A stretch of 64,000 bases of DNA from Strigamia acuminata (lineage: Eukaryota; Arthropoda; Chilopoda; Geophilomorpha; Linotaeniidae), in assembly GCA_949358305.1 (NCBI GenBank), contig OX442314.1, positions 47,252,581 through 47,316,580 of the forward strand. The letters are read 5' to 3'. How positions within the stretch are numbered: the first letter of the stretch is position 1; each line of letters opens with the position of its first letter. The position numbers were made by a program, and so were the translations under genes. Of the stretch, positions 13,801-45,114 are shown piece after piece. The notes beneath the pieces are model-generated. The model ran no database searches, had not been told where the DNA came from, and was given only the letters and a program-made list of their open reading frames with translations.

Positions 13801-13935
13801 CCTTCTGATTATGCAGGTTCGCAGAAACACGAGACTAGTCAGTCTAGTCTGTATTTCTAGCGCGCTCTAGTGGCGAGAATCAATAACATGATAATCGTCA
13901 CCAATTACTTCTTCAGGTGATGCCGAATCACCACA

Positions 13936-20400: not shown

Positions 20401-21529
20401 GGTTATGGCGTTTAAAGGTCTATAATCGATGCAGAGGCGCGGTTCGGAGCCTGGTCGCATGACGAGGACAATCCTCATTCCATACTCTCCGATGGCGTGC
20501 GACACGATCCCTTTTTCGAGCAACTCATTGCACATTGTTCTTACGATGTGTCTCTTCTGGGGATTCATAGTCTTAAAAGGCACTCGTACCGGTTTGCCCG
20601 TAACCAATTCGATCTCGTGCATTACGTAACTTGTCTTCCCTGGATCCTTATTTAAGTTCTTCGAGTGCTTCTTGAGCATTTCTTCGAGGAGTTTCGTTTG
20701 TTCTTCTCCAAGATTGGCGTCTACTGCCAGATTATGTATTAAATTCTCCTCCTGGAGGATAGTATTAAATGATTTAAAATTATAGTCTTGGATGAACTTT
20801 TTAATTTCGCCTCCTCCCCATTCCTCGTCGTCCTTAGCTTTGTCTAGGAGTTCCGGAGGTATTATGGGTAGTCGTGGGTCCTCGTGGTTGTCGATGTAAT
20901 TCCACGAACGTGTGACTGGGTTGGGCTGGATGTTCATCCGTTCCATCAAATCCATTCCTATCAGCAGGATTGTGTCTCGGGTTGGTAACACGATGAAGAA
21001 ATGCTTAATCGTGCCTCCTTCCCATACGAAATCGGTTGATAACGTCCCCACTGCTCTAACTTCTCCCGCTGCCGTAAGAACTCGAATATTCTCGTTCATT
21101 CCCCGTAATTTTTTCTGTATTTTTTCTTCGAGTGATTCGAACAAGTCGGTGGAGATAAACGACTGATCCGCTCCCGAGTCGAGTAGTCCCATTAACACCT
21201 TTTTGCCGAAAGAGACCGGTATTTTTGCCAGTACGTTCTTCGCTTCTGTTGATAGGTTGCAACGAAGTATTCGCTTTTTAAGAGGATTGGCCCCTTGGTC
21301 AAGCGGTAAAGTCATGAAAGCGTTGGCTATGCCGTCTTCGTCTCTAATTTCGAATTCCCGTTTTTTGGTTGGAGTTGTGACTTCCTCGTTGGCAGCTTCC
21401 TCGAAAAATTCCAACAATTTTTTCATTTCTTTAATTTGTTTTTCCACTAGTGTAAGGTCCATCGTTTTTGAAGTTATCGCGAGCGGATGTGGAATTATTT
21501 TTGTTCCGCCCGCGAGTTCCAGTTTTTTG
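17449..21529 (-). CDS. pol: Gypsy A Pol polyprotein (protease, RT, RNase H, integrase)
   Basis: The frame is open from the gag overlap (about 21529) through the first Met (21462) to 17449, 1337 residues from Met. In order: protease LLDSGADQSF (about residue 93), reverse transcriptase with RLCIDYRPLNA and the catalytic WAYLDDIVIV (about 444), RNase H (TLHTDASRIG; ELECLAVVWA), integrase zinc domain (HxxxH at HPLAGHSG ... CPRCQAC, about 895-940), catalytic D at FDCWSVDLMGP, D at ISDNGPQF, E at NPVERLNRD, and a C-terminal GPY-type motif (DKRDGPYVILE, about 1204). All key catalytic residues are present. It is expressed as Gag-Pol by -1 frameshifting at 21522-21528. Confidence 0.95.
21478..21528 (-). 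promoter_or_regulatory. -1 ribosomal frameshift signal of Gypsy A (slippery site plus stem-loop)
   Basis: On the minus strand the gag codons read TCA AAA AAC, which contains the classic heptamer A AAA AAC (21528-21522) in the zero frame. Seven bases downstream a stem forms: CGCGGGCGGA (21514-21505) with TCCGCTCGCG (21487-21478). It is ten pairs with one G-U, and the 17-base loop contains the gag stop. Shifting -1 at the heptamer enters a frame that is open all the way into pol. The same arrangement is found in Gypsy B. Confidence 0.88.
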
Positions 21530-24374
21530 ACATACTGTCGAATTTGGCGGTGAGTTCCTTCAAGACTTTTTCTTGCTCCTTAGCGAGCAATCTCACTAGT
21601 TCTTCTCTCTCTGCGGCCTTGTCGTCGGCTTTTTTCTTTGCCAATTTCGGGCAGGTCTGACGCCAGTGGCCGTCCTCGTTGCAGAAATTACAAGGGCTTT
21701 TCTTCTTTCCCTCCCGCACAAAAGGTTTTTTGGGGTAGTCTTTCTTCTCAGAAGTCGCCTCTGTTTTCGGGTTGTGATGCTCCGATTTTCTGGACTTCAT
21801 CTGAGGTCGGTAGCTGGGTGCCAGTTCCTTCCCCATGTTTGCATGTACAACCTCGTTGATACCTTCGTCGACCTCATCGCTTTCCGAGAATTGCTCAGAA
21901 TCTTCGCTTATTTCGTCTTCCGACTTTTCCTCGGCGGCGTTAGTTTGCGTGCGATAGGCCTTATTTGGAGGTGGTAACGGGTTGGAAGCTTGTTGGTTTT
22001 TCTTTGAGGGGAGTGGCTCTATACTTCCGTTTAGATAATTTCGCGATTGGAGCAGCTTAGTGGAGTCTATGCTGCGTTCCTGTATTCGTTGCTGCCGAGC
22101 CACTCCTAGAGCTCGTTCTTCTTTTGTCAGATTTTCGTTATACCGAGCATTTACTTCGGTGTGTTTTTTCTCGACGAAAGCGAGGATGGCTTTGAAATTA
22201 TCCCCTTTAGGAGCGTTCATTTCTCGTAGGACTTTGGTTGCGGTTTCGTTTAGTCCTTGTTCGAAGAGAGCTTTCTGAGCGTGTTGGTCAAATGGTTTGT
22301 CCATTTCACGGAACAGGCTGTCGGCTCGTTGTACGTACTCCCTCAGAGTTTCCCCGGGAGCTTGCTTCATAGAGCTTACTCTTTTCTGGATTTCTTGGCT
22401 CGTCTCGCCATATTGATTGTGGAACTTTATGACGAAGTCTTCCCAGTTTCGGGGTTGGACATCAGCGTACCAGTTTCGGGCCCGGTTGATCAGCATTTCT
22501 GGTATTCCGCGTGCAACCATTTCGTCGGGTTCCGCTCCTAAACGATTAATCGTCAGGGCGACTTCGTCCAAAAACAAGTTGCCAGCGTTCCAGGATCCGT
22601 CGAACTTAATTAGTCTCAGGGTCGTCCACTTGATGTTGTTATCCTTGCGAGAATACAGCCATCGGTCCGCGGAGTAACGTTTCAACAATCCTTCGCTTCG
22701 ATCGTCTTCCTCGGTCTCTTGGCCACGGCTCTGTTGAAGTTTTTGGTCCATGGCTTGAAGGAGTTCGTCTTTCATCGTCCGTAGTTGGTTGCTTAGCGAG
22801 TCAGTCTCACTAGGCAGCGGTGATGATCGTGGATTGTCGGAAGGGAGGCTTGGGTAATGCGTACCGTTGCCTGTCAGTCCGAATTGATTGTGTTGGAACG
22901 ACGTTTGCCCTGATGATCCCGCGGCGTTCGGATTATTCGTGAGGTCTTGCGCTACCGTTGAGTTATCGGGGTTCGATTTTTCCGGAGCGGAGGTTCGGCT
23001 CAACTTTGTTCCGGGCGGTATCAGATCGTCCAGTCGGGTCCCCGTGAGGCCTTCGTTCGTTTTTTTGATAAAAACATAGGAGTCTCTTCCAGCATAGGCT
23101 TCGGCGGCGTGCTTCTTTTCGAGGTGATTTTTAACTGCGTTAATCTCCTCGAGCGTCGGCATGGCCAGTTTATTTCGACCTGCTTCGTTGCGTATCTGGT
23201 TCTTCTGATTTATACATCTGATTAGTTCGGTGTTAGGGTCGCCTGGGTTGGTATTACTGGTTTGGCCAGTTTTCATTGCAAATGAGTTTTTTATTGCCCA
23301 TGATTGCGCGCCCTGATTATTCCTCCTATCCTGTATAAACGCCTCGTATAGTTCTCCTTTGACTTCGTCCGATTCGTTCAAGATGCTATCTAGTCCGTTG
23401 ACTCGGATACTGCCGTGAGATGCTTGAGAGTCGATACTTTCACTGTCTGACGTTGCTTCGCCGCCGGTCTCGGACTGCTGTCGATCCGCTCCGACCCGAC
23501 GTCGTTTCTCCCCGCGTCTGGCCGTGTTTTCTGCCGATCTTTTTTCAGTCCTCTGATTTACCAGGTCGATTACTCGGCTTAGTTCTGCGTAAGGATCCTT
23601 GTCCTGATCGATCTCGATGCCGTGTGCGCAGGCCACTCGAGTTACTTCTATTGCTTTGGCTACCAGCTCCTTAGCTGTGTGAGACCGTTCTGGGGAGCTC
23701 TGTACGGAGTTTGGCTCCGAATGCTGGCTTAACCCGTTGCTTGGTGGCCGGATCTGGTAGTCCTTTGCCATTTCTCGTTCGATTATTTTTTGCTTCGCGA
23801 GCAATTCTCGAGCCAGCTCGCGCTCCATTGCCATTTGCTTTTCTTGGCTTTCACGGGCGGCCGCCATCTGCTTAGCTTGACGTTCTTGTGCCAAGCTCTG
23901 TTCCATGGCAGCTAACTTCTCGCGATGCTCTCTGGCTAAATCTTCCATCAATTCGTTTTTCTTCTTTTCCAACGCGGCTGTTCTCGCTTGGTCGGCTCGG
24001 GTAGCCTCGTTGATAATTGCGGCGCCTGTACTTGCCGCTTTATTTAGAAGAGTCATTAGGTCCATTTCACTGGGATCCTTTTCGACTGGTCTGGGGCTTT
24101 TCAATCCGAATCGAGGGTTTTCGAACGATTTATTTAGTCTGTTTTCTTCGTGAGAGCTCCCTGATCCTTCGAATTCGCCTCCCGTGAACGGAAGTTGTCT
24201 TGCAAGGGGAAGGCCTTCACTTGATGATTCCGTTGAAACTTCAGTCGAGTTAGTCTCGACTTCTGGTTCCACGTGGTTCGCTTCTTCCGCTTTTTGGCGT
24301 TCGATTTCTTCGGTTTCCTTTCTCTCTTTTTCGTCGTTACGCCTTTTTCTGTCTTCTGCGGTAGTTTTCGTCAT
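21495..24374 (-). CDS. gag: Gypsy A Gag (structural protein, 959 aa)
   Basis: The N-terminal third is charged and predicted coiled coil (EEIERQKAEEANH; long Glu/Lys/Gln heptads, about residues 110-210). A retrotransposon Gag core lies at about 555-725 (WTTLRLIKFDGSW ... NWEDFVIKFHNQYG ... LREYVQRADSLF), and one CCHC zinc knuckle near residue 895 (CNFCNEDGHWRQTC). The stop at 21495 lies 25 bases after the frameshift heptamer. Gag would assemble the particle and bind element RNA. Its length is close to that of Gypsy B Gag (about 964). The Met at 24374 is the first in the frame after the leader. Confidence 0.9.
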   Translation of the reverse strand: MTKTTAEDRKRRNDEKERKETEEIERQKAEEANHVEPEVETNSTEVSTESSSEGLPLARQLPFTGGEFEGSGSSHEENRLNKSFENPRFGLKSPRPVEKDPSEMDLMTLLNKAASTGAAIINEATRADQARTAALEKKKNELMEDLAREHREKLAAMEQSLAQERQAKQMAAARESQEKQMAMERELARELLAKQKIIEREMAKDYQIRPPSNGLSQHSEPNSVQSSPERSHTAKELVAKAIEVTRVACAHGIEIDQDKDPYAELSRVIDLVNQRTEKRSAENTARRGEKRRRVGADRQQSETGGEATSDSESIDSQASHGSIRVNGLDSILNESDEVKGELYEAFIQDRRNNQGAQSWAIKNSFAMKTGQTSNTNPGDPNTELIRCINQKNQIRNEAGRNKLAMPTLEEINAVKNHLEKKHAAEAYAGRDSYVFIKKTNEGLTGTRLDDLIPPGTKLSRTSAPEKSNPDNSTVAQDLTNNPNAAGSSGQTSFQHNQFGLTGNGTHYPSLPSDNPRSSPLPSETDSLSNQLRTMKDELLQAMDQKLQQSRGQETEEDDRSEGLLKRYSADRWLYSRKDNNIKWTTLRLIKFDGSWNAGNLFLDEVALTINRLGAEPDEMVARGIPEMLINRARNWYADVQPRNWEDFVIKFHNQYGETSQEIQKRVSSMKQAPGETLREYVQRADSLFREMDKPFDQHAQKALFEQGLNETATKVLREMNAPKGDNFKAILAFVEKKHTEVNARYNENLTKEERALGVARQQRIQERSIDSTKLLQSRNYLNGSIEPLPSKKNQQASNPLPPPNKAYRTQTNAAEEKSEDEISEDSEQFSESDEVDEGINEVVHANMGKELAPSYRPQMKSRKSEHHNPKTEATSEKKDYPKKPFVREGKKKSPCNFCNEDGHWRQTCPKLAKKKADDKAAEREELVRLLAKEQEKVLKELTAKFDSMSKNWNSRAEQK

Positions 24375-24448
24375 TTTCTTGCGATATAATGATCGGTCGA
24401 AAGATCCCGGTTATTATTTAAAGTTTTGTCGTAAGGTTAGCAAATTCT

Positions 24449-24466
24449 ATCCCGGACAGACCCCCA
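24449..24466 (-). other. Primer binding site of Gypsy A
   Basis: Two bases inside the 5' LTR, the coding strand reads TGGGGGTCTGTCCGGGAT. It starts with TGG, the complement of a tRNA CCA end, and continues like the complement of a T-arm (ATCCCGG). It resembles the tRNA-Pro type primer site, with about three differences from the common sequence as I recall it. The same position in Gypsy B holds a related site. Confidence 0.65.
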
Positions 24467-24468
24467 CG

Positions 24469-25097
24469 TGTCGTGATTCGACTTTGTGGTTAAAGATAAT
24501 AAATAATACACTCGGGAATACAATATACTTCAAATACTGCTTTATTAAAACACGCTTACTAATACAAATATAAGTTAAGATGTTTCCTGTGGTGGTCCTC
24601 GGATTCGGCTGCGAATACGAGTTGCCGCTAAACAATGGCGGATCCAATTGTTTAGTCCTACGCGTGGTCTGTGTTTGTTGTCTAGGGTATTTCCACGTGT
24701 TATTATGAACACGCGAGAATTCGCTTTCTCGTGCGAATTAAACGAATATCGTTCGGATATTTATTCTAGCGTAGTTTGGCTACGCTAAATAAATGTGGCT
24801 GTTGTACAGTTGAATGGTCAGCGGGCACCGGTCCTCGATCAATCCGTGAAACGGCCTGAAAGGTGAGGTAAATGGTGCTCTTGCTGAGATTGGTAACTGT
24901 AGTATCGTTTCCGGTCAAGCGCTAACGTTATATGTTAACCGGAAATGACGTCATATGCAAATCCTTCTGATTATGCAGGTTCGCAGAAACACGAGACTAG
25001 TCAGTCTAGTCTGTATTTCTAGCGCGCTCTAGTGGCGAGAATCAATAACATGATAATCGTCACCAATTACTTCTTCAGGTGATGCCGAATCACCACA
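24469..25097 (-). repeat. 5' LTR of Gypsy A
   Basis: This LTR is 629 bp, matching 13307-13935 with one difference noted. It is followed on its outer side by the target duplication CACT (25098-25101). On the coding strand it is the promoter copy and holds the CRE/octamer/ETS cluster at 24908-24962. Confidence 0.95.
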
Positions 25098-25289
25098 CAC
25101 TGTTTATACACTCGATCTTGGGGTTAATGCCTTCCAATGTTGAAACTTCTCTCCAAGAGAGACCGCGAATTTGATGAAGTCCCTTGCTCCTTTTGTGCCG
25201 GGAGCAGATGGGTTGAGGGTATTTTCGCCCGGGCTCACCTGCTGGTTTGCCCAAATTGAAGCTGGGCAAAGAATAGAAAGCAGACCGCA

Positions 25290-31104: not shown

Positions 31105-32647
31105 TTGTTGTTTAAGTTACTTTTAGACACAGGTAGTGAACTCTCAATTTTAAATTTGGCGGATTGCAACCGACTGTTACGAGATGGAGTGGTGCAGCCT
31201 AATGAGATTCGCCCTTCATCAGTGAAGTTATTTGCATACCAACACCAACCCAGTAAGGTGTTGGGGACAGTGACGATGCGAGTGAACGTGGCGGATGTGA
31301 TGAGGTTTGTGGATTTTATGGTGGTCGGCCGGAGGGGTCCCAGTTTATTAGGGAGAGATTTTGTGCAGCTATTTCGGTTGGATGTTGTTTTGAAAGCAAC
31401 AAACCAACCACAGGCTACTCTCAAGCAAGAAGTACCAATATTTTAAGCATCAACATCCAAGATGGTGGACGATGTGACACGAGTGGATATGCACCAAGAT
31501 GGAGACGCCTTACGAACGTTATTAATTCGCAATAACGCTGTCTTTGATGAAAAGTTGGGTAGCTACACTGGCGACCCCATTGAGCTTGTGTTGATGCGAG
31601 ATGCGGTACCCCGATTTTACCGACCCAGACCTATACTCTTCGTGTACCGGTCAATCGAGAAATTGACCGCTTAATTCAACAAGAAGTTTTCCGTCCAATC
31701 CCTTATTCAGAATGGGGAATCCCATTAGTAACTGTTTCCAAGAAAGATGGGGGAGTCAGGCTGTGTGGAGATTACTGCTCCACGGTCAACCCTAGTTTGC
31801 AGCCTGACCTGTACCCTTTGCCGCTTATATCCGACTTGCTGGCCTCAATTGGCAAGGCTCAGGTCTTCAGTACCCTGGACTTGCGCCAGGCCTACTTACA
31901 GATCCCCTTGTCAAGCCGCTCCGCCATTATCGCAGCCGTCAATACCCCAAAAGGATTGATGGCGGTGACACGACTACCATTTGGCACCATGCTTTCCGCA
32001 GGCATTTTTCAGAGGATAATTGAGTTGGTTCTAGAAGGGGTCACGAGGATTTTCATATATTTGGACAATATGTTAGTGGCCACTTGGACTTATGGTGAAC
32101 ATCTTGATATTTTACAAACTATTTTTACTCGTTTATTGCAGAAAGGCCTGCGGTTAGCAAAAGAGAAGTGTGTTTTCTGCAAGTCTTTGCTGGTCTTCTT
32201 AGGATTTTCAGTGGACGAAGAGGGAGTTGAGCCGATAGCAACACGTATCGAGGCAATCACTAGAATTTCACCCCCAGCGAACGTGAAGGCACTTCGCACG
32301 TTTTTAGGGATTGTGGCATTTTATGCTGCGTTTGTAAGAAACTTGGCCGATCATGCTGCACCCCTTTATGAACTTGTGGATAGATACCTTATGGCAGTGG
32401 TCACCACGACGTCATGCAGCATTTGAAGCCATCAAGTGGGCATTGATGACAGCCCCATTGCTTGCATTTTATGACTTAGATAGGCCAGTTGTAGTTGCGA
32501 CAGACGCGTCACCTTATGGTGTGGGCGCTGTCCTTGCACATGTCGATGGGAGTGGACGCGAGCTGCCCGTAGCTTTTGCGTCAAGATCCCTGAACAGAGC
32601 CGAATTAAATTACGCTCACATCGACAAAGAAGTGCTGGCCATCATAT
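31105..32647 (+). pseudogene. Gypsy C pol, 5' part (protease, RT, start of RNase H), broken
   Basis: The protease motif LLLDTGSELSIL is at 31117. RT follows in two further frames with GWGIPLV-type start (SEWGIPLVTVSKKDGG), LDLRQAYLQIP, LPFGTMLSAGIFQ and the active site, which reads YLDN (32058-32069) instead of YLDD. RNase H begins near 32360 (WSPRRHAAFEAI ... ATDASPYGVGAVL ... AELNYAHIDKEVLAI) after another frame change near 32390. The RNase H is cut at 32647 by the Gypsy B LTR and resumes at 45119. At least three frame breaks and the lost catalytic Asp make it non-functional. Confidence 0.88.
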
Positions 32648-33719
32648 TGTGGTGACCTCAAATATTCCTATTTGAGCGCGCACCATATTTCCGAATTGTT
32701 TAATAAACGAATCCAACTCTCCTATATGTTTTGTTTCAATGTAGATTGAAATAAAATATATAATATTCAAAGATAAAACAGGACACAATATTACCCAAAT
32801 AATATCGTGTCTTGCAGCAAGTTTTGGCCCAGCAACAGCATCAACCAATCACGTTGCGGCGTGCATTGCTTTGATGATGCTGCTAGGCGTGTGCCTGGGC
32901 GGAGCATCCCTTCCCCTCGCGCATGCCCGGCTCGATTGTTGCACACGACCCGAAGGCGGCCGTGTGCGATCTTCATGCAACTCGTCTTCTGCGCAGCTTT
33001 GCTGAGCAGATTTAGGAGTGAGCCAAACGGTTTTGGCCCACTCTTTCCGCACTCTTGATTCCACCTCCAAACTGTTCACAACCGTGTCAAACTTCTGCCA
33101 AAACTGCAAAGTGTGATCTGTGATTCTTGGACGAATTGAGTTTCATCGCTGGTCTGTACCCACTGTACGGAATAGCAACTTTCTAGCTTGAATTACTACG
33201 CGTAATTTAAGCCATTTCTGTGTGAAACTAACATCGAGTTTACTCTGTTAGTTTGAAGGCTTTGTGTCGAGTTTAACTCCACAAAGCGATTTGTGTAAAG
33301 ACCGATTGTTACGTCGAGCTTGCTCCGTAATAATCGAACCGCTGTGTGCAAGACGTATTCTCGTGTCGAGCGTGCTCCACGAGGATTTTAGTATATTTAG
33401 AGGCGTATTTTAGCGTTGAGTTTACTCCGCTAAAATCCCGCGCTCACACGACGCCGTCGACGCCATCTTGGAGCCAACGGTCAACTGTGAGTTTATATTG
33501 GTGAAGAAGAAGCCAGATCGACCCCAAACATTATTATTTTGCATATATCTCCTGTATATTTTGGAACTAATTAAAACTATCTAATTTTTCCTTTACTCTG
33601 TGTAAAATCATTCCCCTAGACAAACATTTGGCCACAGAGTAGAAGTCCTGTACGGCATCTCACCGACAATTGCTTGTTGAATTTATATAATTTAATAAGT
33701 AAAAACCCGGATCGCCGCA
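32648..33719 (+). repeat. 5' LTR of Gypsy B
   Basis: This LTR is 1072 bp, TG...CA bounded, with a CCAAT box (32845-32849) and an array of five related hairpins (33225-33436) plus one different hairpin at 33187-33211. AT-rich strings with TATA-like and AATAAA-like sequence occur near both ends. Short frames in the LTR are conserved only because the LTRs are near-identical and have no domain. Confidence 0.95.
33225..33436 (+). promoter_or_regulatory. Array of five bulged hairpins with a common GAG/CTC cap in the Gypsy B LTR
   Basis: Five inverted repeats lie in series: 33225-33254 (AAACTAACA/TGTTAGTTT), 33259-33287 (GCTTTGTG/CACAAAGC), 33303-33336 (CGATTGTTACG/CGTAATAATCG), 33357-33386 (ATTCTCGTG/CACGAGGAT) and 33407-33436 (ATTTTAGCG/CGCTAAAAT). 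The stems differ completely but all pair, with a few G-U pairs. The tops are alike: TC then GAG, four or five bases, CTC. So each folds as stem, two-base 5' bulge, three-pair GAG/CTC and small loop. The array is repeated at +11395 in the 3' LTR. Pairing kept while sequence changes is strong evidence for a selected structure. Confidence 0.8.
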
Positions 33720-33721
33720 CT

Positions 33722-33739
33722 TGGGGGCCCGGCCGGGAT
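33722..33739 (+). other. Primer binding site of Gypsy B
   Basis: TGGGGGCCCGGCCGGGAT begins two bases after the 5' LTR. It resembles the tRNA-Pro primer site, with about two differences from the usual sequence as I recall it, and is close to the site of Gypsy A in the same position. Confidence 0.7.
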
Positions 33740-33809
33740 AGTTTTGATTGTTAAAATCCGATTTTTGCAAAAAGATCCTTTATTTCCATTGTTCTCTCAA
33801 TTTGACAAA

Positions 33810-36704
33810 ATGGCGACGCCAATGCAAATTGTGAAACGACAGCGAGGTCGACCAAGCACTCAGAAACGAGCAGCGACGGTTTTGCCGGCTCTCGAGCCTG
33901 AAACGCTTGTGGAGAAAATTATTTCCGAAGAAATAACACCAGTTCCAGATCCGAAACAACTTAAGGATGCTGAAAATGAAGTTGCTAGAGCATTAAGCGC
34001 TTCAAGTGTGAGTTCTAACGACCAAGAACTCCCGCCACTTCCACTGGAGGAAGTGGAAAATACGTTACGAGAAATGGAAAGTGAATCGTCTCACGAATCA
34101 CCTCCTCGCATGACCATGCTGGATGCTTTGAGAAATCAAGCACGCCAGGATGGCGCCCAAATAACGGACGACATGACGGTGGAAGAGATTCATCGCGCCA
34201 TGATACGACTTCACACTGACCGCGCCGTTTCAGATTTAAAATTTGAAATGGAACGGAAAGAAGCCGAGCTTCAACAGCAAAAAGCTGAAGTTGAGCTTCA
34301 ACACATGGAACTCAATCGACAAAACGAAGAATTTCTAGCCCAGAAAGCTAGGGAATACAGATTAAAAGGTGAAGTGGAAGATCTTTCTAAAATGAATACT
34401 AGAAATGAACTTTCAATTCGCTCACACCAAGAGGCGCGAAGACAGCTCGAGCTTACCAAAAGTAAGTTGGAGCAGAAGAATAAAGAACTGATTGATTTGG
34501 CAGAACACTACCAACGCAATCATAATCAACTAGTGAGATATGCTACTGAATTAGACACACGTGCTAAAACACAGCGTACTCGCGAAAGTAAAATAGCTAA
34601 GCGTGAAGACGAGATTTTCCACTCGCTGGATCAACCCAGTACGAGCGGACAAGTCAAGTCCAGCGGCCATGCTGAGCGATTACAACCAGAAGAATCGCAA
34701 AATCAAATAAATGAGAATGAAATTCTCTGAGCTGATTTGTTGCGCGCTCAAGAAGAGCTTGCAGAAATGAAAGATCGTTTGCAAGCAAGAAATTATACTG
34801 ACCAATTGGTGCAACCAGAAATGGCTGCGCCAACTGTTCCTATTTTGACTCCCGAAACAATAGCAATTTCTGTTGTTTCAGAGTTAAGTAGCCAATCTGG
34901 ATTATCGAGTGATGACGACCAACGTTCGCGTCGCCGCCATCGCTCAAAAAGAAAACGTCTCTCCGATTCTGAAGAAAGGAGAGCTGATCGCAATCCGCTC
35001 CCTGGTAATCGGAATCCTATTTTTCACAACAGTGACCGACTGCTGGGAATGGTAGACGATCGAAATAGACGGCATGAAACTGGTATTCATGTTGCTCGAA
35101 CGATACCACTGGCCCAACAGCAAGACTCATCGAAAAGAAGTCGACGAGACACGAATCCAGCGCGCGAACCGCCCGACGGACATGAAAACCCGCCAGGTGG
35201 GGGTCAGTATAGAAGAAATCCACCAGATGGAGGAAATCCAGATGGACATGGAAATGGACCACCTGGAGGTGGACGCCGACTGCCAGACGATGACGGCGAC
35301 CCACCCGACCCACCTGAAACACCACATTTTAACACGCCTTCAAATTCACAATCTGATTCAAGGTCGGATTCTGATGTGAATGCGCAACAAGAACGCGATA
35401 ATCGACATCGATCTCATCGACGTCGACATCGAGGCCACTCTTCTCGGCGTAATACTCATTATTACACTGCTGAGGAAATTGATCGATTATTAGCTGATCG
35501 TCGATCTTCTGATCGATCTGACGCTACTGCCGATAATGCTGACATTGCATTACGACAGAAAATTGCACAATACACTGCCAACAACTGGACTCACGATCTA
35601 GTTGATGAAAGAACTATTAGATGGGATCACATCAAACCCGCTTTATTCGATGGAGAATGGGAAGCTGGATCCACTCTTTTAGATGAAGTTTTACGAATTT
35701 CAAGGTTGAATGGCATTGCATGTCACACTGCTTTGAAAAGAGTAGTACCTAAAGCTCTTATAGACCGAGCTGAAAAATGGTTTTATTCAAAACAATTTCA
35801 AAATTGGAATCACTTTGTAGAGGAATTCATGACTGAATATGGAGAGTCAAGTGAAGACTTACTACAAATGTGGGATAATCTTTCTCAAAATAAAGGCGAA
35901 AGTCTTCGCTCTTATTTAAGAAGGACTGAGGATTTATTGGTCACTCTCCCTTATACGATGGGAGACGCAGCCATTGATCGTCAATTCCGTCGTGGATTGA
36001 CAGATTATTCAAAAAATGTTCTACTTTCAGTACGAGCACCTTATCCGGGTGGTTTCGCTGAATTAGCCAAATTTATGCGAGCCAATCAGATAAGGATTGA
36101 CGAAAATTACAAAGCTTACTTACCAGCTGATGAAAAGGTTGCGTACGCTAAGCGACAGCAAAGGAGAAAGGAATTGGCAAAAGACACACGTTTTGCTAAT
36201 ACCCTTCTTTTGCAACCCCCAAAACGAGGAGATTTTTTGGCAGAGACTGCTAAGGAATCTAAAAAGGGATCGGATGGGAAAAATCCACATCCAACCCCTA
36301 AAGCTCACTTAGCCGAAGTGACAGAAATGGAAACTGCTTCTGAACCAGAGAAATCTGACTCGGAACCAGAAAGTGAGGCTGCAGCTGCTTTATTAGCCCG
36401 TAATAACGCAGTAGCTCGAAAATTTGGACCAAAGATGGCGCCTAAAAACGTTACTTTTGGTTCACCAAAAACAGACGCGTTCAGTAGATCGAAGTCGCCG
36501 ACCCCTAAAAAGGATGAAGCCAAACGTTCAAGTTCGCCTTCACCAAAGGTCGCTAAATCGCCCGCTACTGATCCGTGTAACATCTGCAAAAAATTGGGAC
36601 ATTGGGCTAAAGAGTGTCTTGATAGGAAATCGAGCAAAGACAAGATTATTGAGGAGTTCGAAAAATCGATGAAATCAATCGGCGAACTTCTAAAAAACTT
36701 GTAA
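33810..36704 (+). pseudogene. gag: Gypsy B Gag with one in-frame TGA
   Basis: From ATG at 33810 the frame runs to the TAA at 36702-36704 with a single TGA at 34728-34730. Both sides are in the same frame, and the total (about 964 codons) equals Gag of Gypsy A, so the TGA is most likely a CGA to TGA change or, less likely, a read-through stop. Features: a basic AT-hook-like start (KRQRGRPSTQKRA), a coiled coil upstream of the stop (ELQQQKAEVELQHMELNRQ), a Gly/Pro/Asn-rich linker, a Gag core (IKPALFDGEWEAG ... NWNHFVEEFMTEYG ... LRSYLRRTEDLL) and a CCHC knuckle (CNICKKLGHWAKEC). Confidence 0.85.
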
Positions 36705-36737
36705 GCGCGCATCCAGACGGTCTAGTGGATGTGACGC
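36692..36737 (+). promoter_or_regulatory. -1 ribosomal frameshift signal of Gypsy B (slippery site plus stem-loop)
   Basis: Gag codons CTA AAA AAC contain A AAA AAC (36692-36698) in the zero frame. After a six-base spacer that contains the gag stop, GCGCGCATCC (36705-36714) pairs with GGATGTGACGC (36727-36737), ten pairs with one bulged A and a 12-base loop. The -1 frame is open from the site into pol. The position relative to the gag stop and the heptamer are the same as in Gypsy A, although the surrounding sequence is different. Confidence 0.88.
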
Positions 36738-39700
36738 CTACCGCCTCGGAAGACAAACTAACACCATCTCAAATTTTAGATGATTTTTTAAATACTCAGA
36801 TTAAATTAGAAATTGAAAATAATTTAGTATTTCCAAAAATTGATGTTTCCACTTTAAGGCTTGTGCTGCAAGATGAAAACATCACTGAAGAATTTTTTAA
36901 AGAAAAAGTTCAACAAATAAAAGTTGATTGGGAATCTAAAATAAAAGATGCTGTTACTTTACTAGATGAAAAAGCTAGGCCAACACCTGAAATTGTCGAA
37001 AGATCAGATGAAATTGATTTACCTGGTCTTGACGAATGCATTGAAAAATTAATGGCTACAACGCTAGTCACCAATGATTTATTGGACAAATTACCATTGG
37101 ATCCGCCGATAGAAATTAAGCCACCGCGACGTTTTAAGTGCAAGTACGCGGACATACCAAACAGCAATGATTTGCCGACGATTCGATTGCAGACGGCAAA
37201 CGGTATGATAACAGGGATGTTAGACTCTGGAGCTAATCGAAGCTTCATGGCCTACTCCGTAGTAATTTCACTGAAGATGGAAGACGAAATTCGACCAATA
37301 GGACCGGATGTGAGAGTTACGACTGCTTCCGAAGACGTAGTCCCAGAAGGAACTCTCCTACTTTCTTTTGCGTGGACTCACGGGATGTTAAGTCATCCGT
37401 TCATAATTTTAAGAAATAAATATCCTATTGTTTTATTAGGATGTGATTTCATGAATCGACTCAACATACAACCAAATCCTAAGACAATGTCTTGGAATTT
37501 TGTCAAGTCTTTGAAAAAAGATTTACCTTTTGTTCCTCAAGCGATTCTTGATCGTTATCAAGAGTTCCTTGATCCACCTGAAGAAATAATGAAACGCGAC
37601 TTTATTAAAGCAAATCACATGAAAGCTGGTTCCGCCACTGCGTGTCAAGCTAAAGTTGCCGATGAAGAAAATGTAGTACAAAGACTTGTTAGCGACGCTA
37701 ATTTGTCAATGGAAAATAATTTAATGCTTGAAAAAGTATTAAAGAAACATGAAAAGATTTTATCACGCCGACCAGGTAGAACACACCTCGTTAGGCATGA
37801 AATTAAACTGGACACTGAAGTTCCAATTAGAGTTCCGTTTAAAAGCGTAAATCCACAGAAACGTGAAATTATCCGTCAAATCTGTCAAGATATGTTGGAT
37901 AATGGATACGTTGAACAAGCCACTGGAGACTATGGAATGCGAATAGTTCTAGTGATGCGTCCGGATTGTGATCCGAGACTCTGCATTGATTTTAGACCAC
38001 TCAATGCACACACATTATACGATCCACCTCAAATGTCCAGCATTGAGGAAATCTTGCGAGAACTCGGAAGATTTGAGTGGGTCACAACAATAGATTTGTC
38101 AAAAGGGTATTGGCAAATAGAGGTTCATCCGAACGACCGTGCTAAAACTGCGTTTTGGAGCCCTTTGGGTCGATTACAATTTCGAGTCATGCCCTTTGGT
38201 CTCGTAAATGCGCCGTCAACTTTCCAAAAGTTGATAGAAAAAATTTTGGGAGATGCCTATCGAAAATTCGCATGGGCATACCTCGATGATATAATTATAA
38301 TATCTAAAAATTTTGAAGAACACATGATTCATCTGGAAGAAATTCTGAGTAAACTTGAAAATGCGAATCTTCATGTTCATCCAGAAAAATCAAAATTTGG
38401 TAGAAAAGAACTAACTTTTCTTGGTTACAAATTAAGTGTTCAAGGAGTTAGTGTCGACCCTAAAAAAGTCGCCGCCATTAAAGAAATGCCAGCTCCTTCA
38501 AATTTGAAAGAGTTGCAAAGATTTTTGGGAATGGTGAACTTTTTTCACCGATTACTCAAGAATCTAGCAGTCATGACGGAACCTCTACGTCCTTTACTCA
38601 AAAAGGATGTAGAATTTATTTGGTCAGAAATTCATCAAGAAGCTTTTGATCAAATAAAAGATGCTTTAACGAATGCAGAAACAATGGCCATGCCTGATTT
38701 GACAGAACCATTTATTGTGCATACCGACGCTAGCAGAAAAGGACTAGGCGCCGCGCTTATGCAAATGAGGGAAATCGATGATCAAAATATCGAAGTGCCT
38801 TGTGTTTATGCCAGCAGAAGTTTGCAACCTGCTGAGATAAATTACAGCGCCACAGAATTGGAGTGCCTAGCGGTAATCTGGGCATTACGTAAATTCCGAC
38901 ATTATTTGGAATTTACGACATTCATAGTTAGGACTGACCATCAAGCATTAAAATGGTTGATGCAATTAGACGAACCTGCCGGAAGGTTAGCGCGTTGGCA
39001 AATGGAGCTGATGCGCTACTCTTTCGAAATACAATATATTAAAGGTCCACTAAATGTTTTAGCGGATGCTTTATCCAGATCACCGATTGACAAACCGGAA
39101 AATCCTGAAGATGATGGAGATAATGATGAATTATTATCTTACTGTCCATCACCGCAACGAAATTGGAAAATGGGAAAATTTCATGAACTTCCTGTCTCCA
39201 CGCTAGAGGAAAAGGAAGATCACGAATTCGTCAACTACTGGACTAAAATTTACGACCCCTCTGAGGAATCAGATGACGTCATAAGAGCGCAAATTTCAAG
39301 GAAATTTCAAATTCCTTCGTCAAATGTTTTAATAAAAGCATTTGTCGCCAAAGTCGTAGAGCGTCTTGATTGTGAACCTCCCACAAGGGAAGACATAATC
39401 AAGGCCCAAAAAGAAGATAAAATTTGCCAATTGATGCGTAATTTTTTAGATTGCAATCAATTTCCGCCTGACGTCACAACGCGACTGCAGAGGAAACAAT
39501 ATAGAAAATACGCAACCACCTTCTTAATTGAAGACGACTTATTAATGCAATTTCATCCCACAATGTCTGATGAATTGGGGGAGGATGGGAGAGCACTCAA
39601 AGTTTTTGTACCTCAGACATTGAAGTATAAAATTATTTGGCTAATGCATGGCCACCCACTTTCTGGCCACCCAGGAATTGCAAGAACTCTTTATCGAGCA

Positions 39701-41173
39701 CGCCGAATTTATACCTGGAAAGGTATGAAATCGGACATTACGAGATTCATTCGACACTGCGAGCGTTGTCAAGCTTGCAAACTTCGAACGAAAGGACAAA
39801 TTGAAGCAGCGCAAATGGGTCCTTACAGCCCATTTGACTGCCTAAGTGTTGATTTGACTGGCCCGAAACCTCGGACTAGAAAAAACAACACACACATTTT
39901 AGTCATACTTGACGTGGCAACTCATTGGCCAGAATTATATCCAATGTGTAACCCTACTGCAGGAAAAGTGGCAAATTGCATTTATCACCTTTCCATGAGC
40001 ATGGGATTCCCTCGAAAAATTATTTCTGATAACGGCCCACAATTTCGTGCCCAAGTCTTTAAAAAATTTTGTGAAAAGTTCAAGATGGTTTTAACACCAA
40101 CTTCAACGTATCACCCACAGGCTAACCCGGTTGAAAGGGTTAACCGTGACATCAAATATCTTGTTGCAATTTATTCATCTGTTCATTCCAAATGGGACGA
40201 ATATTTGCGTGAATTTGCATTTAGTTTGAGAACTACGGTGACGAGAGGAAGAGACTTCTCTCCCGCATTTCTTAACTTTTTTCGCGAACTCAGAGTACCT
40301 TGGGATCCAAGAATACCTGAAGGAATTTTGGTCATAGATCCAAAAAACCCACATTTATACGTGCAAAAATTAGAAGCCGTTATCGCCGAAACATATCAGC
40401 ACATGATGTCACACGTGTTAGATTTACGTAAGCGAGTTAATCTTAAAAAAGAAGGTGAGAAGTTCTCCAATTTTAAATTAAACGATTTAGTTTGGAGAGA
40501 TTCTCATGTTTTGTCGAGTGCTGCCCGTGGCATTGCAGCTGGCATCGCTGATAAAAGAACAGGACCTTATGTAATAACCAAAGTATTACAGGGAGGTTCA
40601 GTAGAATTGAGAAAGCTGGAAAATAACGAAATATTTCCAGCTGTCCATTCGTCGGAATTAACTCCGTATTTCCCGAGTTTCGACCAGGAAGTATGGTTAG
40701 AAGGCGAAGACGTCGGTCAAAAGACTGAAAATATAATTAATACGTTAGATGACGATGAATTAAAGAAAATACCAGTCGATAATTCATCTAATCGCCCCCT
40801 GGAGTCCGATTTCGCAAACAACGACGTTGAGCTCCGAGACAGTTTCAAAAAACTTGAAATTGCTAAAAAATTAAATAAAAAGGTGTTTTTAGAAAAGAAA
40901 CAAAAAACATCTAAAACAAAAGACTCATCTGACTCAGTCTCCGATGACAATGAAGACGACGATTTAAATACAATAAATCCCTCGCCGACAAAGAGATATA
41001 ATCTTCGGACTCGTAAACCGAGAGGAAAGAACAACATGTGTCTTCTCCCCTCGCTAACCTCGAGATCCAGGGATCAGCCGTATGACGTAAGGAGCAATTC
41101 CCCAAGCCATGCGCTAACCAATCCACCGATAAGATTGGATGACGTCACTAACAGCGACGTTACCCAAACGTAA
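36692..41173 (+). CDS. pol: Gypsy B Pol polyprotein (protease, RT, RNase H, integrase)
   Basis: The frame is open from the frameshift site. There is no ATG near the start (the first codon after the gag end in this frame is not Met), in keeping with expression only as Gag-Pol. In order: protease MLDSGANRSF (about 37217), RT with RLCIDFRPLNA and catalytic WAYLDDIIII (about 38275), RNase H (VHTDASRKGLGAAL; ELECLAVIWA), integrase zinc domain (HPLSGHPG ... CERCQAC, 39650-39780), D in FDCLSVDLTGP, D in ISDNGPQF, E in NPVERVNRD, and GPYVI. About 1480 residues, longer than Gypsy A because of a 3' extension rich in Asp and Lys. All catalytic residues are intact. Confidence 0.95.
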   Translation, partial: KKLVSAHPDGLVDVTPTASEDKLTPSQILDDFLNTQIKLEIENNLVFPKIDVSTLRLVLQDENITEEFFKEKVQQIKVDWESKIKDAVTLLDEKARPTPEIVERSDEIDLPGLDECIEKLMATTLVTNDLLDKLPLDPPIEIKPPRRFKCKYADIPNSNDLPTIRLQTANGMITGMLDSGANRSFMAYSVVISLKMEDEIRPIGPDVRVTTASEDVVPEGTLLLSFAWTHGMLSHPFIILRNKYPIVLLGCDFMNRLNIQPNPKTMSWNFVKSLKKDLPFVPQAILDRYQEFLDPPEEIMKRDFIKANHMKAGSATACQAKVADEENVVQRLVSDANLSMENNLMLEKVLKKHEKILSRRPGRTHLVRHEIKLDTEVPIRVPFKSVNPQKREIIRQICQDMLDNGYVEQATGDYGMRIVLVMRPDCDPRLCIDFRPLNAHTLYDPPQMSSIEEILRELGRFEWVTTIDLSKGYWQIEVHPNDRAKTAFWSPLGRLQFRVMPFGLVNAPSTFQKLIEKILGDAYRKFAWAYLDDIIIISKNFEEHMIHLEEILSKLENANLHVHPEKSKFGRKELTFLGYKLSVQGVSVDPKKVAAIKEMPAPSNLKELQRFLGMVNFFHRLLKNLAVMTEPLRPLLKKDVEFIWSEIHQEAFDQIKDALTNAETMAMPDLTEPFIVHTDASRKGLGAALMQMREIDDQNIEVPCVYASRSLQPAEINYSATELECLAVIWALRKFRHYLEFTTFIVRTDHQALKWLMQLDEPAGRLARWQMELMRYSFEIQYIKGPLNVLADALSRSPIDKPENPEDDGDNDELLSYCPSPQRNWKMGKFHELPVSTLEEKEDHEFVNYWTKIYDPSEESDDVIRAQISRKFQIPSSNVLIKAFVAKVVERLDCEPPTREDIIKAQKEDKICQLMRNFLDCNQFPPDVTTRLQRKQYRKYATTFLIEDDLLMQFHPTMSDELGEDGRALKVFVPQTLKYKIIWLMHGHPLSGHPGIARTLYRARRIYTWKGMKSDITRFIRHCERCQACKLRTKGQIEAAQMGPYSPFDCLSVDLTGPKPRTRKNNTHILVILDVATHWPELYPMCNPTAGKVANCIYHLSMSMGFPRKIISDNGPQFRAQVFKKFCEKFKMVLTPTSTYHPQANPVERVNRDIKYLVAIYSSVHSKWDEYLREFAFSLRTTVTRGRDFSPAFLNFFRELRVPWDPRIPEGILVIDPKNPHLYVQKLEAVIAETYQHMMSHVLDLRKRVNLKKEGEKFSNFKLNDLVWRDSHVLSSAARGIAAGIADKRTGPYVITKVLQGGSVELRKLENNEIFPAVHSSELTPYFPSFDQEVWLEGEDVGQKTENIINTLDDDELKKIPVDNSSNRPLESDFANNDVELRDSFKKLEIAKKLNKKVFLEKKQKTSKTKDSSDSVSDDNEDDDLNTINPSPTKRYNLRTRKPRGKNNMCLLPSLTSRSRDQPYDVRSNSPSHALTNPPIRLDDVTNSDVTQT

Positions 41174-41180
41174 CTTCCGG
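41082..41180 (+). promoter_or_regulatory. CRE-like cluster upstream of the Gypsy B third ORF
   Basis: At the end of pol there are TGACGTAA (41082-41089), an inverted CCAAT pair (ccaatccaccgataagattgg, 41118-41138), TGACGTCA (41140-41147) and CTTCCGG (41173-41179). The same site types (CRE plus ETS core) form the cluster in the LTR of Gypsy A. An internal promoter for the third ORF is a reasonable inference. The sites also lie in coding sequence, which limits the claim. Confidence 0.4.
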
Positions 41181-41294
41181 TATTTGAAACGATCACTTCG
41201 CGTCTGAGTTCACTTCGATCTCACACGTGTGTTAAGTGCTCATCCCCAAAACCAAAAGAGAAACCGTTGGATTAATTCTCCCGAATCTTCAATT

Positions 41295-41372
41295 GTAAGT
41301 AGTTTTTTCTTTGGAATTTTCCAAGGAAAAACTAATAAATTAATTTTCGTTTTTCTTTTCCATTTGGATTAG
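41295..41372 (+). other. Predicted leader intron of the Gypsy B third ORF
   Basis: GTAAGT at 41295 and a pyrimidine-rich tract ending TTGGATTAG at 41372 define a 78-nt intron eight bases upstream of the ATG of the third ORF (41381). Gypsy A has an intron in the equivalent place. The consensus sites support splicing of a separate mRNA for this ORF. Confidence 0.55.
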
Positions 41373-41380
41373 TCGTTCAA

Positions 41381-43870
41381 ATGGAAGAAGAGGAACCGAA
41401 AGAAGGAAGCGAAGCCGGCGCCAACAGCCTCGAATTAGAAACAAATTCGACGTTGCTTGGTTCCGCAAACACCTCGAATGCATCCGTGGATGTCACCGAA
41501 GAGTCCGCCGAAGCGTCCGCCGAAGCTCAAGCCGCTCTGGCCGACGCTGCTGCCCGTTTGCCGGTCACACCGCCCCGACCCCGCCTACGAGGAGGTCTCT
41601 TCGCCGATCCGAACGGCGAAACACGTGCACAGAGACACGAACGGATTATCAAGCTTCGGGAGACACATCTCGAGTTACATCCCGATGTGCCAACCGACCC
41701 TGGAATCTGGCGACATGCATTGCCGCCAGAAATCATCAAGTCCAAGGGGAGATTGACGTTTTGGGCAGCTCGTCACAAGTTTTCCAAGGCGCTCAACAAG
41801 CGATGGGGCACGAAGCATCGGATTGCCCATCTAATTGAAGATTTTGGCCATCGCGACGCCCTCGAGTGGGCCATGAAGCACGACACCCAAGGCCCACTAC
41901 GGAACGTGTTGCTCGACTTCGCCTTCATAGTGATCGCTCAAGAGACGCGAGATCACCGCCGTTTCTTCAACGCTCCTGCGTGGGAGCGTCGACAGATTTT
42001 GGAGGACATCTTCCAACGTCTGGACCAAACAAAGGCCGAAATCGTGCGCCTTTACAACGAATCTTTCCGGCCAACCACGGATGGAAAGAAACGTTGGGTA
42101 CCGACAAGCCAGTCGGACATGCATCAACTCGCAATGGGCGGCTGTTTGCGAAAAGATTTCGTGCCGAACCCGTATCTAGAGCCTGAGCCCCGGATGCAGG
42201 TCGCTTCCACCATCCACGTGGCACCACCGCGTTCCACGTCGAGGTCACGATCATCGAGGTCGCCCTACAGTGGCCGTCGCTCCTCCCCAACACAGTCGTC
42301 GGGGGAAGGCGCCATTGGAGGGTTACCTCCACTTCAAAAGGCTCGTCATCGCTCACATCACCGACGCGAGTCGACGCCGCCAAAAAGACATTCGAAGTCC
42401 GTGTCGAGACCCGCATCCCGAAGCCGACCTCGAGTGCAATCGCGCCAATCTTCCACGAGGAGTTCACTCTCGCCGCGCGAAGAAAGATCCAACGCTTCTC
42501 AGCTTAGCGCTTCCACCTCCTCCTGCCAGATTGACTGGTCGGACGAGATCGAGAAGGAAGATCGTCGCATCGCCGCATTGCAAGCCGGTCAAGGAGACGT
42601 CAACGCTTCTTTGCCGTTCGCTTGCCGTCCAGTCACCAGCGACATGCGACCAGACCCATCGGTGCCCGTGCCACAAGTGACGACGGTCATTCGATTTGAG
42701 GGATCCCACATCTCGCCGGAACCATTTCCAGCACAGGAGTGCGCTGATCTCTGGAGACGATTCTCATCGTTTCCCGAGACAGCCCAAACGATGTACCTCG
42801 CGCATCTGGACGAGTACCAGCTCGCTCAGATCCGCGAAGGAGAAAAAGGATGGCAATGGCTTGCCCGAGAGATGGAGTCATGCAAATCCGACAAGCAACT
42901 GCAACGGAAGTTGCAGAAGATGCACAGGAAGTTATCGGAGGGACTTCTTAGAATCCTGTTCCAAGGAGTCTTCCCTGACCTACGGATGGCTCTGGCGGCC
43001 GCCACTCGATCGTGGACCGTGCCGTTAGGACTTCCACGAGCCTTGCTAGACGATTGGGAGTCAGTTCGCCCCGATCCTCCAACAATGCTCGCCGAATTGA
43101 CGCAACAAGCCGAGGCGACTGGCGAAACTCCGGCTGGATCCGCCATTCGACTACGGCAGGAATGGGCTACACTGAAACAGCAGCGCGCAACGGAACGAGC
43201 GACCGCCCGTCCCGCTGGCGCCCCGCCATCATCAGCCGCTCCACTCAACGCTGTCGTAGCGGCAACGTCGGGTGTCATGCGAGCAACCGAAGCACCGAGT
43301 TGCCAGCTCTCGTCTCCAATGGAATGGCTCGACAGCGACGATCGCGAGTTCATCGTGCCAGTGGCCAGCGGTGCAAGAGCAAAGACGCGCGCCCCGGCTT
43401 CGCGCAGATCCAGATCCCTCTCGATCTGCAAGAAGTCGCCGCCACCGCCGCCTCCTCCAAAGGATTCGCCGCCAAGAGATAGGGAATTGAGTATGGCCAC
43501 CTACCTCACCGCCTATCAACGCTTGCGCTCGGTGTACGCCTTCTGCTACATCACGAGCGCGACGAAGACGATTCTTCAAAACAACGAGGATCTCTGCAAC
43601 CGAGTCCTCGCGTGGTTGGAGAACCACATCAAAGAGCAGCAGCCGTGGATCCTCCATCAACGTCTCGTTTTTGCCAGGATCACGCCGAAGGACCCGCAAG
43701 AGTACTTCGAAATGGGGTTTGGACGAAGGGATGGTGTGAGACACATTAAGCAAGTGTGGCTTCACATCAACCCTGGCTTCCAGTCAGGACCGAACGTCGG
43801 CCGATCTTTGTGCACCGTCACAGAGCACAAGGATCCAAATGATCATTCGACGGACATGTTGCCTAAATAA
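41381..43870 (+). CDS. Gypsy B third ORF (unknown function, env position)
   Basis: The open frame of 829 residues starts MEEEEPKEGSEAG. It has no signal peptide or membrane segment. An acidic N-terminus is followed by a helical domain (LTFWAARHKFSKALNKRW ... SQSDMHQLAMGG), an Arg/Ser-rich region (SRSRSSRSPYSGRRSS; RSRPRVQSRQSSTRSS), a second domain (LAHLDEYQLAQIREGEKGW ... LPRALLDDWESVRP), a Pro-run (SPPPPPPPKDSPP) and a C-terminal domain (WILHQRLVFARITP). These segments align in order with the third ORF of Gypsy A at low identity. RS-type regions suggest RNA binding and nuclear location. Codon use is more GC-rich than in its own gag and pol, so a different origin from the rest of the element is possible. 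Confidence 0.8.
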   Translation: MEEEEPKEGSEAGANSLELETNSTLLGSANTSNASVDVTEESAEASAEAQAALADAAARLPVTPPRPRLRGGLFADPNGETRAQRHERIIKLRETHLELHPDVPTDPGIWRHALPPEIIKSKGRLTFWAARHKFSKALNKRWGTKHRIAHLIEDFGHRDALEWAMKHDTQGPLRNVLLDFAFIVIAQETRDHRRFFNAPAWERRQILEDIFQRLDQTKAEIVRLYNESFRPTTDGKKRWVPTSQSDMHQLAMGGCLRKDFVPNPYLEPEPRMQVASTIHVAPPRSTSRSRSSRSPYSGRRSSPTQSSGEGAIGGLPPLQKARHRSHHRRESTPPKRHSKSVSRPASRSRPRVQSRQSSTRSSLSPREERSNASQLSASTSSCQIDWSDEIEKEDRRIAALQAGQGDVNASLPFACRPVTSDMRPDPSVPVPQVTTVIRFEGSHISPEPFPAQECADLWRRFSSFPETAQTMYLAHLDEYQLAQIREGEKGWQWLAREMESCKSDKQLQRKLQKMHRKLSEGLLRILFQGVFPDLRMALAAATRSWTVPLGLPRALLDDWESVRPDPPTMLAELTQQAEATGETPAGSAIRLRQEWATLKQQRATERATARPAGAPPSSAAPLNAVVAATSGVMRATEAPSCQLSSPMEWLDSDDREFIVPVASGARAKTRAPASRRSRSLSICKKSPPPPPPPKDSPPRDRELSMATYLTAYQRLRSVYAFCYITSATKTILQNNEDLCNRVLAWLENHIKEQQPWILHQRLVFARITPKDPQEYFEMGFGRRDGVRHIKQVWLHINPGFQSGPNVGRSLCTVTEHKDPNDHSTDMLPK

Positions 43871-44028
43871 TTAGGGAACATACCCGTCCATTAAAAATAA
43901 TTCCTTTTTTATTTTTATACTGTAATAAAAAAGAATAAATATATATCCTGTTCCATTTTACTTTGAAACCTTGTGTATTTATTCTCCTACTTACCTGTCT
44001 CTTCTGGAATAGAATAAGATTCTTTCTT

Positions 44029-44042
44029 AAAAGGGGGGGAAG
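44029..44042 (+). other. Polypurine tract of Gypsy B
   Basis: AAAAGGGGGGGAAG ends exactly at the 3' LTR (TGTGG at 44043). It is a textbook plus-strand primer. Confidence 0.9.
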
Positions 44043-45114
44043 TGTGGTGACCTCAAATATTCCTATTTGAGCGCGCACCATATTTCCGAATTGTTTAATA
44101 AACGAATCCAACTCTCCTATATGTTTTGTTTCAATGTAGATTGAAATAAAATATATAATATTTAAAGATAAAACAGGACACAATATTACCCAAATAATAT
44201 CGTGTCTTGCAGCAAGTTTTGGCCCAGCAACAGCATCAACCAATCACGTTGCGGCGTGCATTGCTTTGATGATGCTACTAGGCGTGTGCCTGGGCGGAGC
44301 ATCCCTTCCCCTCACGCGTGCCCGGCTCGATTGTTGCACACGACCCGAAGGCGGCCGTGTGCGATCTTCATGCAACTCGTCTTCTGCGCAGCTTTGCTGA
44401 GCAGATTTAGGAGTGAGCCAAACGGTTTTGGCCCACTCTTTCCGCACTCTTGATTCCACCTCCAAACTGTTCACAACCGTGTCAAACTTCTGCCAAAACT
44501 GCAAAGTGTGATCTGTGATTCTTGGACGAATTGAGTTTCATCGCTGGTCTGTACCCACTGTACGGAATAGCAACTTTCTAGCTTGAATTACTACGCGTAA
44601 TTTAAGCCATTTCTGTGTGAAACTAACATCGAGTTTACTCTGTTAGTTTGAAGGCTTTGTGTCGAGTTTAACTCCACAAAGCGATTTGTGTAAAGACCGA
44701 TTGTTACGTCGAGCTTGCTCCGTAATAATCGAACCGCTGTGTGCAAGACGTATTCTCGTGTCGAGCGTGCTCCACGAGGATTTTAGTATATTTAGAGGCG
44801 TATTTTAGCGTCGAGTTTACTCCGCTAAAATCCCGCGCTCACACGACGCCGTCGACGCCATCTTGGAGCCAACGGTCAACTGTGAGTTTATATTGGTGAA
44901 GAAGAAGCCAGATCGACCCCAAACATTATTATTTTGCATATATCTCCTGTATATTTTGGAACTAATTAAAACTATCTAATTTTTCCTTTACTCTGTGTAA
45001 AATCATTCCCCTAGACAAACATTTGGCCACAGAGTAGAAGTCCTGTACGGCATCTCACCGACGATTGCTTGTTGAATTTATATAATTTAATAAGTAAAAA
45101 CCCGGATCGCCGCA
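44043..45114 (+). repeat. 3' LTR of Gypsy B
   Basis: This LTR is 1072 bp and matches 32648-33719. Differences noted include positions equivalent to 32768, 32880, 32920-32925, 33416 and 33669. One of them changes the cap of hairpin five from TTGAG to TCGAG, so here all five caps agree. The perfect ATAT target repeat follows. Confidence 0.95.

Follow-up and report, generated by a model that had tools for sequence, protein, structure and literature searches.

A tandem array of TAR-like hairpins, very probably selected as sense RNA, in the LTRs of a Ty3/Gypsy element from Strigamia acuminata

The long terminal repeats (LTRs) of a Ty3/Gypsy element in Strigamia acuminata (Chilopoda) carry five hairpins in series, and we are highly confident that these are selected hairpins of the sense RNA. 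From the letters that the hairpins have in common with the TAR hairpin of HIV, we tentatively favour a longer chain of reasoning, which taken whole is somewhat likelier to fail than to hold: the array may be a functional cis-acting element made of arginine-sandwich-type RNA hairpins in tandem, perhaps read by the Gag protein.

The element and its hairpin array

The window, that is, the whole stretch of 64,000 nucleotides that was analysed, contains two Gypsy elements, of which the one named Gypsy B carries the array. Its LTR pair, its Gag and a pol in the order RT, RNase H, integrase are those of a Ty3/Gypsy element. The best 120 pol relatives listed are 34–48% identical to it, and those with names come from a salamander, nematodes, fishes, a frog, a pseudoscorpion, insects, an alga and a plant. 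The main parts are as follows.

32648-45114, plus strand: Ty3/Gypsy element (Gypsy B), with an LTR pair, gag, pol and a third ORF
32648..33719, plus strand: 5' LTR of 1072 bp, starting TGTGGTGACC and ending GATCGCCGCA, 99.44% identical to 44043-45114
34737..36704, plus strand: gag frame (Retrotrans_gag, PF03732); of its two arginine-rich stretches one is near residues 63-74, the other near 223-238
36725..41173, plus strand: pol frame, with RT, RNase H and integrase
41295..41372, plus strand: 78-nt intron, GTAAGT ... TTAG, directly before the third ORF
41381..43870, plus strand: third ORF of 829 aa, with an RS/arginine-rich stretch and no Pfam match
44043..45114, plus strand: 3' LTR, with 6 differences from the 5' LTR in 1072 bp
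13302-25098, minus strand: Gypsy A, the second Gypsy element in the window

The hairpins, numbered H1 to H5 in the 5' LTR, recur in the 3' LTR.

33225..33254, plus strand: H1, 9-bp stem, bulge TC, cap GAG-TTTA-CTC
33259..33287, plus strand: H2, 8-bp stem, bulge TC, cap GAG-TTTAA-CTC
33303..33336, plus strand: H3, 11-bp stem including one G-U, bulge TC, cap GAG-CTTG-CTC
33357..33386, plus strand: H4, 9-bp stem including one G-U, bulge TC, cap GAG-CGTG-CTC
33407..33436, plus strand: H5, 9-bp stem, bulge TT (TC in the 3' LTR), cap GAG-TTTA-CTC
44620..44831, plus strand: the five hairpins again in the 3' LTR copy, found by the hairpin scan

In each hairpin the 5' arm alone is bulged, by 2 nt; GAG follows, and a loop of 4 or 5 nt leads to CTC. 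An earlier reading made from the sequence only had reported five hairpins with differing, paired stems at 33225-33436, and these are present, five in the scan against a shuffle mean of 0.009. It had also given all five a TC bulge, which is true of H1–H4; H5 has TT in the 5' LTR and TC in the 3' LTR, one of the 6 differences between the two. Its description of the cap as GAG-N4/5-CTC is right in the GAG/CTC and in the loop length but not in the free N, because the loop ends are complementary in all five hairpins (TTTA, TTTAA, CTTG, CGTG and TTTA). Across the haplotypes described below, where loops are mostly 4–5 nt, these end pairs are Watson–Crick in 388 of 389 gap-free cells and G-U in the remaining one.

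The scan looked for GAG-N3..6-CTC over a lower stem of 6 bp or more with a 5' bulge of 0–4 nt. On both strands of the 64-kb window it found five such hairpins in the 5' LTR, five in the 3' LTR and none elsewhere. Among 2000 dinucleotide shuffles of the LTR none had more than one hairpin; 30 shuffles of the window's plus strand averaged 0.47, with no more than 2 in any. Folded as RNA, 33222-33440 has a z of -3.76, with 0 of 200 shuffles equally stable; the hairpins form in the complementary strand folded as DNA as well (z -4.94). Since both strands fold, folding energy by itself cannot separate RNA from DNA.

Throughout the genome searched (237.5 Mb, 157 contigs), the tandem-cap pattern has 297 + 302 matches, several of which may come from one array; the reversed pattern has 0 + 2. 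Five hairpins is the commonest size among the arrays listed. Seven-hairpin arrays occur at two places 21 kb apart on one contig (C1, loci L058-L063), perhaps the LTR pair of one element, and their order suggests that the first two hairpins were duplicated. Several loci retain only 2–4 of the five hairpins by the strict scan, a loss expected of old, dead copies. Directly after the array, at 33449-33466, lie two adjoining CGACGCC-T units, the first of which has G where many copies have A.

Gypsy A resembles Gypsy B in pol (51% identical over 1211 aligned positions), in Gag (31% over 365), in the length of its third ORF and in having hairpins in its LTR, but the hairpin scan finds no GAG/CTC cap hairpin in it. 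The two strongest small hairpins of its LTR have 5-nt loops and a 1-nt bulge on the 3' side, and no two-sided change is evident in ten other copies of one part of this LTR. For want of the cap hairpin, and from these ten copies, an array common to both elements was rejected. Rfam offered no known family for the array either: in a scan of 32600-33800 none reached its gathering score, the four matches falling far below theirs.

Covariation and strand asymmetry among genomic copies

Copies of the LTR in the same genome were gathered by DNA similarity and by the tandem-cap pattern, giving 128 rows, some of whose loci overlap one another in place, and 78 distinct haplotypes. Fifty loci (L047-L096) came from, or were chosen from, the cap-pattern search and are biased to intact caps. 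The outermost (11th) pair of H3 is poorly conserved, being Watson–Crick in 32 of the 78 haplotypes, and was for that reason dropped from the pairing count.

Across the 78 haplotypes 99.1% of stem cells are paired, compared with 30–46% when the partner is slid by 1–4 columns. Two-sided changes occur at five stem pairs, as against 0–1 in the slid controls: H1 pair 4 (A-T in 39, G-C in 37), H1 pair 6 (C-G 42, T-A 35), H5 pair 1 (G-C 58, A-T 20), H5 pair 4 (A-T 52, G-C 23, A-C 3) and H2 pair 8 (G-C 69, T-G 5, T-A 3). The loop-closing pairs of H1 (C-G 40, T-A 37, T-G 1) and H2 (T-A 71, C-G 7) also change on both sides. The sequence-only reading had proposed covariation among LTRs of the family as a check on the hairpins, and its expectation was borne out. 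When the covarying pairs are traced on a flank-based tree of 73 rows, they change several times, a figure that relatedness and recombination can inflate; because the rows are related and LTRs recombine, we do not count these changes as independent events. The array has the compensatory changes beyond a slid control and the strand asymmetry expected of a conserved structured RNA, with the same reservation that rows are related and LTRs recombine.

The strand asymmetry lies in the kind of mismatch that is kept. Selection on sense RNA would tolerate G-U and not A-C, selection on DNA would leave the two balanced, and antisense RNA would show the opposite bias. Non-Watson–Crick types common to at least three of the rows comprise 13 GU, 1 AC and no others, and those in one or two rows, which are taken to be mostly private changes after insertion, comprise 14 GU, 10 AC and 18 others (78 haplotypes). 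By Fisher's test, shared and rare types differ at p 1.2e-4 for GU versus the rest and at p 0.03 for GU versus AC alone. In a subset of 39 arrays, defined in the next section, the shared types are 9 GU and 1 AC and the rare types 10 GU, 3 AC and 5 others; these counts point in the same direction as the full set, with a weaker contrast and a rare class that also leans to GU. At two stem pairs G-T is the state of most haplotypes (71 and 61 of 78). Exceptions to a pure sense-RNA rule are the A-C at H5 pair 4, in 3 rows, and an A-C at one cap pair of H3, in 4 of the 78 haplotypes. The excess of G-U over A-C among shared types argues for selection on sense RNA rather than on extruded DNA, and sense RNA is most likely what selection acts on. 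Of the two forms that had been suggested, RNA or extruded DNA, the first is thus favoured and the second is not (13 shared GU, 1 AC). Both the hairpin structure and the selection on sense RNA are well supported.

Likeness to TAR and candidate readers

Because rows picked by the cap pattern favour intact caps, constraint was counted again after rows named after pattern loci had been removed, leaving 39 distinct arrays from 50 rows. Haplotypes found by both routes carried pattern-locus names and so are also absent from the 39, and the query of one of the DNA-similarity searches is itself a pattern locus. In these arrays the first base of the bulge is T in 194 of 194 cases (387 of 389 letters in all 78 haplotypes, pattern-picked rows included); C, T and A all occur as the second, which has 46 minor cells in 194. 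Minor cells number 11 of 1167 in GAG/CTC, 183 of 3429 in stems and 248 of 2377 in linkers, and the base that precedes the bulge is A or G in 193 of 194 cases. These counts show that the bulge U and GAG/CUC are held far more strictly than the stems, the linkers or the second base of the bulge. That independent stems stand under one cap, as had been suggested, is upheld, and so are paired changes across the family.

TAR sits at the start of R, and therefore at the 5' end of every transcript, where it binds Tat, which activates elongation; its hexaloop contacts cyclin T1. To our knowledge, TAR-type recognition has known cases in lentiviruses and in the host RNA 7SK. According to the passages available from two papers (PMC11885821, PMC6189040), Tat binding is abolished by U23C and U23A, any base works at position 24, and U25 can be deleted, the HIV-2 form being UU. 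In the same passages (PMC11885821, PMC6189040) a U23-A27-U38 triple is sandwiched between G26-C39 and G28-C37, and the arginines are taken by G26 and G28. Set against these published needs, the constraint on the bulge U and on GAG/CUC is the pattern that an arginine sandwich would require, and the array's constraints appear to match closely those of the HIV TAR sandwich as far as these passages describe it. In each hairpin an invariant first U of a 5' pyrimidine bulge lies under G-C, A-U and G-C; at the level of sequence the arginine sandwich is represented by the bulge pyrimidine, by a G-C on either side of the second pair and by a stackable base below. An outward likeness to TAR had been noticed from the sequence; it reaches further than was claimed, in that the bulge U and GAG/CUC are the sandwich positions in the published passages.

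With HIV-1 and HIV-2 TAR, as those passages present them, the array shares an essential first U in a 5' bulge, a GAG/CUC directly above it, a tolerant second base and a location in the LTR. It differs in having five to seven copies in tandem, in lacking the hexaloop (its loops, mostly 4–5 nt with complementary ends, leave just 2–3 bases unpaired) and in its host, a Ty3/Gypsy element with no known Tat; the likeness amounts to about seven nucleotides per hairpin. Packaging signals of retroviruses and retrotransposons are likewise serial stem-loops with a shared motif, which is read by Gag. Gag would be a putative reader of the array too, but here the motif lies inside the LTR and at a bulge instead of a loop, and a packaging role is putative. 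Another parallel is stem-loop 1 of 7SK, where, in the passages available, several pyrimidine-bulge arginine sandwiches occur in a single RNA (PMC6189040); those motifs lie near one another in a single host-RNA stem, whereas each motif of the array has its own hairpin and belongs to a transposon. The literature search found nothing that pairs the arginine sandwich motif with a retrotransposon, and among the matches listed, each represented by its title and the start of its abstract and PMC3601003 by passages of its text, none describes such an array.

Two other copies preserve both arginine-rich stretches of Gag with few changes; one of these copies has 84.5% DNA identity over 575 aligned positions. 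Arginine-rich stretches are common in Gag proteins, so that they speak weakly for Gag as the reader. Pfam found no Tat domain in the element's frames. The attempt to assign a function to the third ORF by homology was unsuccessful: Pfam gives nothing for it at E up to 1, none of the 7998 candidate proteins scored matches it at E ≤ 0.001, and its match to the third ORF of Gypsy A is non-significant (E 0.29). By analogy, the key letters common to the array and the HIV hairpin suggest that an arginine-rich protein may read the cap.

We propose that the array works as a cis-acting element in the retrotransposon RNA. Each hairpin would present the same pocket, a 5' bulge with U as its first base under G-C, A-U and G-C, and a short loop with a pyrimidine–purine pair would close it. 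As in TAR, the A-U pair would be joined by the bulge U in a base triple, with the guanines on either side taking two arginines. More tentatively, the reader could be an arginine-rich protein of the element itself, most likely Gag, which might bind five (up to seven) pockets jointly and so select and condense the element's RNA. That a Ty3/Gypsy element independently evolved a TAR-type arginine-sandwich code of five to seven tandem pockets, read in the RNA by its own protein, is a conjecture that we hold to be possible and on balance doubtful. If it were true, a Gypsy element would have reached the TAR solution separately and in a multivalent form. The many genomic copies (599 tandem-cap matches, several per array) constitute a natural experiment on the bases that the reader needs, and the arginine-sandwich reading makes a plain prediction for short synthetic RNAs and peptides.

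Place in the transcript and alternative explanations

The genomic RNA of an LTR element contains the whole LTR sequence, each part of it at one end or both. An array lying outside the transcript, which had been named as an outcome that would count against RNA hairpins, is for this reason hardly applicable, and the question becomes which end carries it; a place in the 5' leader is preferred. Three further features lie downstream of the array.

33487..33492, plus strand: GTGAGT, putative, splice-donor-like
33570..33575, plus strand: ATTAAA, a possible polyadenylation signal, in 79 of 81 LTRs at the reference coordinates
33588..33647, plus strand: island of strong conservation, mean heterozygosity 0.011-0.027, in the LTR's 3' part

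Of 118 rows, 70 contain both anchors, and all 30 aligned haplotypes taken from these have GTGAGT, as do 76 of 81 LTRs at the reference coordinates. Searches of the genome for a direct join of this donor-like site to the third ORF (up to 3 mismatches; control, one match) and for a join through an upstream exon of limited length both gave 0 matches, as did a search with one pattern for a poly(A) retrocopy. The exact joined ends of the intron at 41295-41372 occur at three places in the genome (control, 0), which look as if they came from reverse-transcribed spliced RNA.

The conserved donor-like site and the apparent splicing before the third ORF at three genomic places bear on a scheme like Tat–TAR or Rev–RRE, in which nascent or unspliced RNA would be bound by the third-ORF protein or by Gag, with a gain in transcription or export. 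A TAR-type pocket, judged by the published passages, and the RS/arginine-rich stretch of the third ORF would suit such a scheme, but junctions from the donor-like site of the LTR were not found, direct or through an upstream exon, and the third ORF matches neither a Pfam family nor any of the 7998 scored proteins; we regard it as unlikely. Somewhat less unlikely, though still improbable, is that the hairpins are selected with no arginine sandwich at all, being read by a host RNA-binding protein or needed as structure alone for export, stability, leader folding or dimerisation. Covariation and sense-strand asymmetry name no ligand, and the CTTG, CGTG and TTTA loops with their closing pair could themselves be a recognition site; structure alone, however, leaves unexplained why the first base of the bulge stays T beside a free second base and why GAG/CTC is constant amid varying stems.

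Two other explanations dispense with selection on RNA, and we give very little credence to either. Were the hairpins to act as DNA in the LTR promoter, as a cruciform or as protein-binding palindromes, their location in the LTR and their capacity to form in the DNA strand would be natural, yet the 13 shared G-T types (against one A-C) would be 13 A-C mismatches on the opposite strand, and the two stem pairs that are G-T in 71 and 61 of 78 haplotypes are awkward too. The cruciform itself was rejected on this strand asymmetry. Template switching within hairpins during replication or reverse transcription, which can alter both arms together and is frequent in retroelements, might keep functionless palindromes perfect. 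Such an artefact, which we find scarcely credible, would fix A-C as readily as G-U, and it would not keep the cap, the one-sided bulge and the first bulge base constant amid varying linkers; the 18 other mismatch types among the rare stem variants moreover indicate that correction is not automatic.

Other parts of the LTR are conserved as well. Directly past ATTAAA, the island at 33588-33647 contains ACTCTGTG and CACAGAGT, which form an 8-bp inverted repeat with a long loop between them. The 5' half of the LTR has a conserved block of 260 bp (32788-33047), with mean heterozygosity of 0.012-0.062 in 12 of 13 bins and 0.099 in one. When folded, this block gives several strong hairpins that differ in kind from those of the array.
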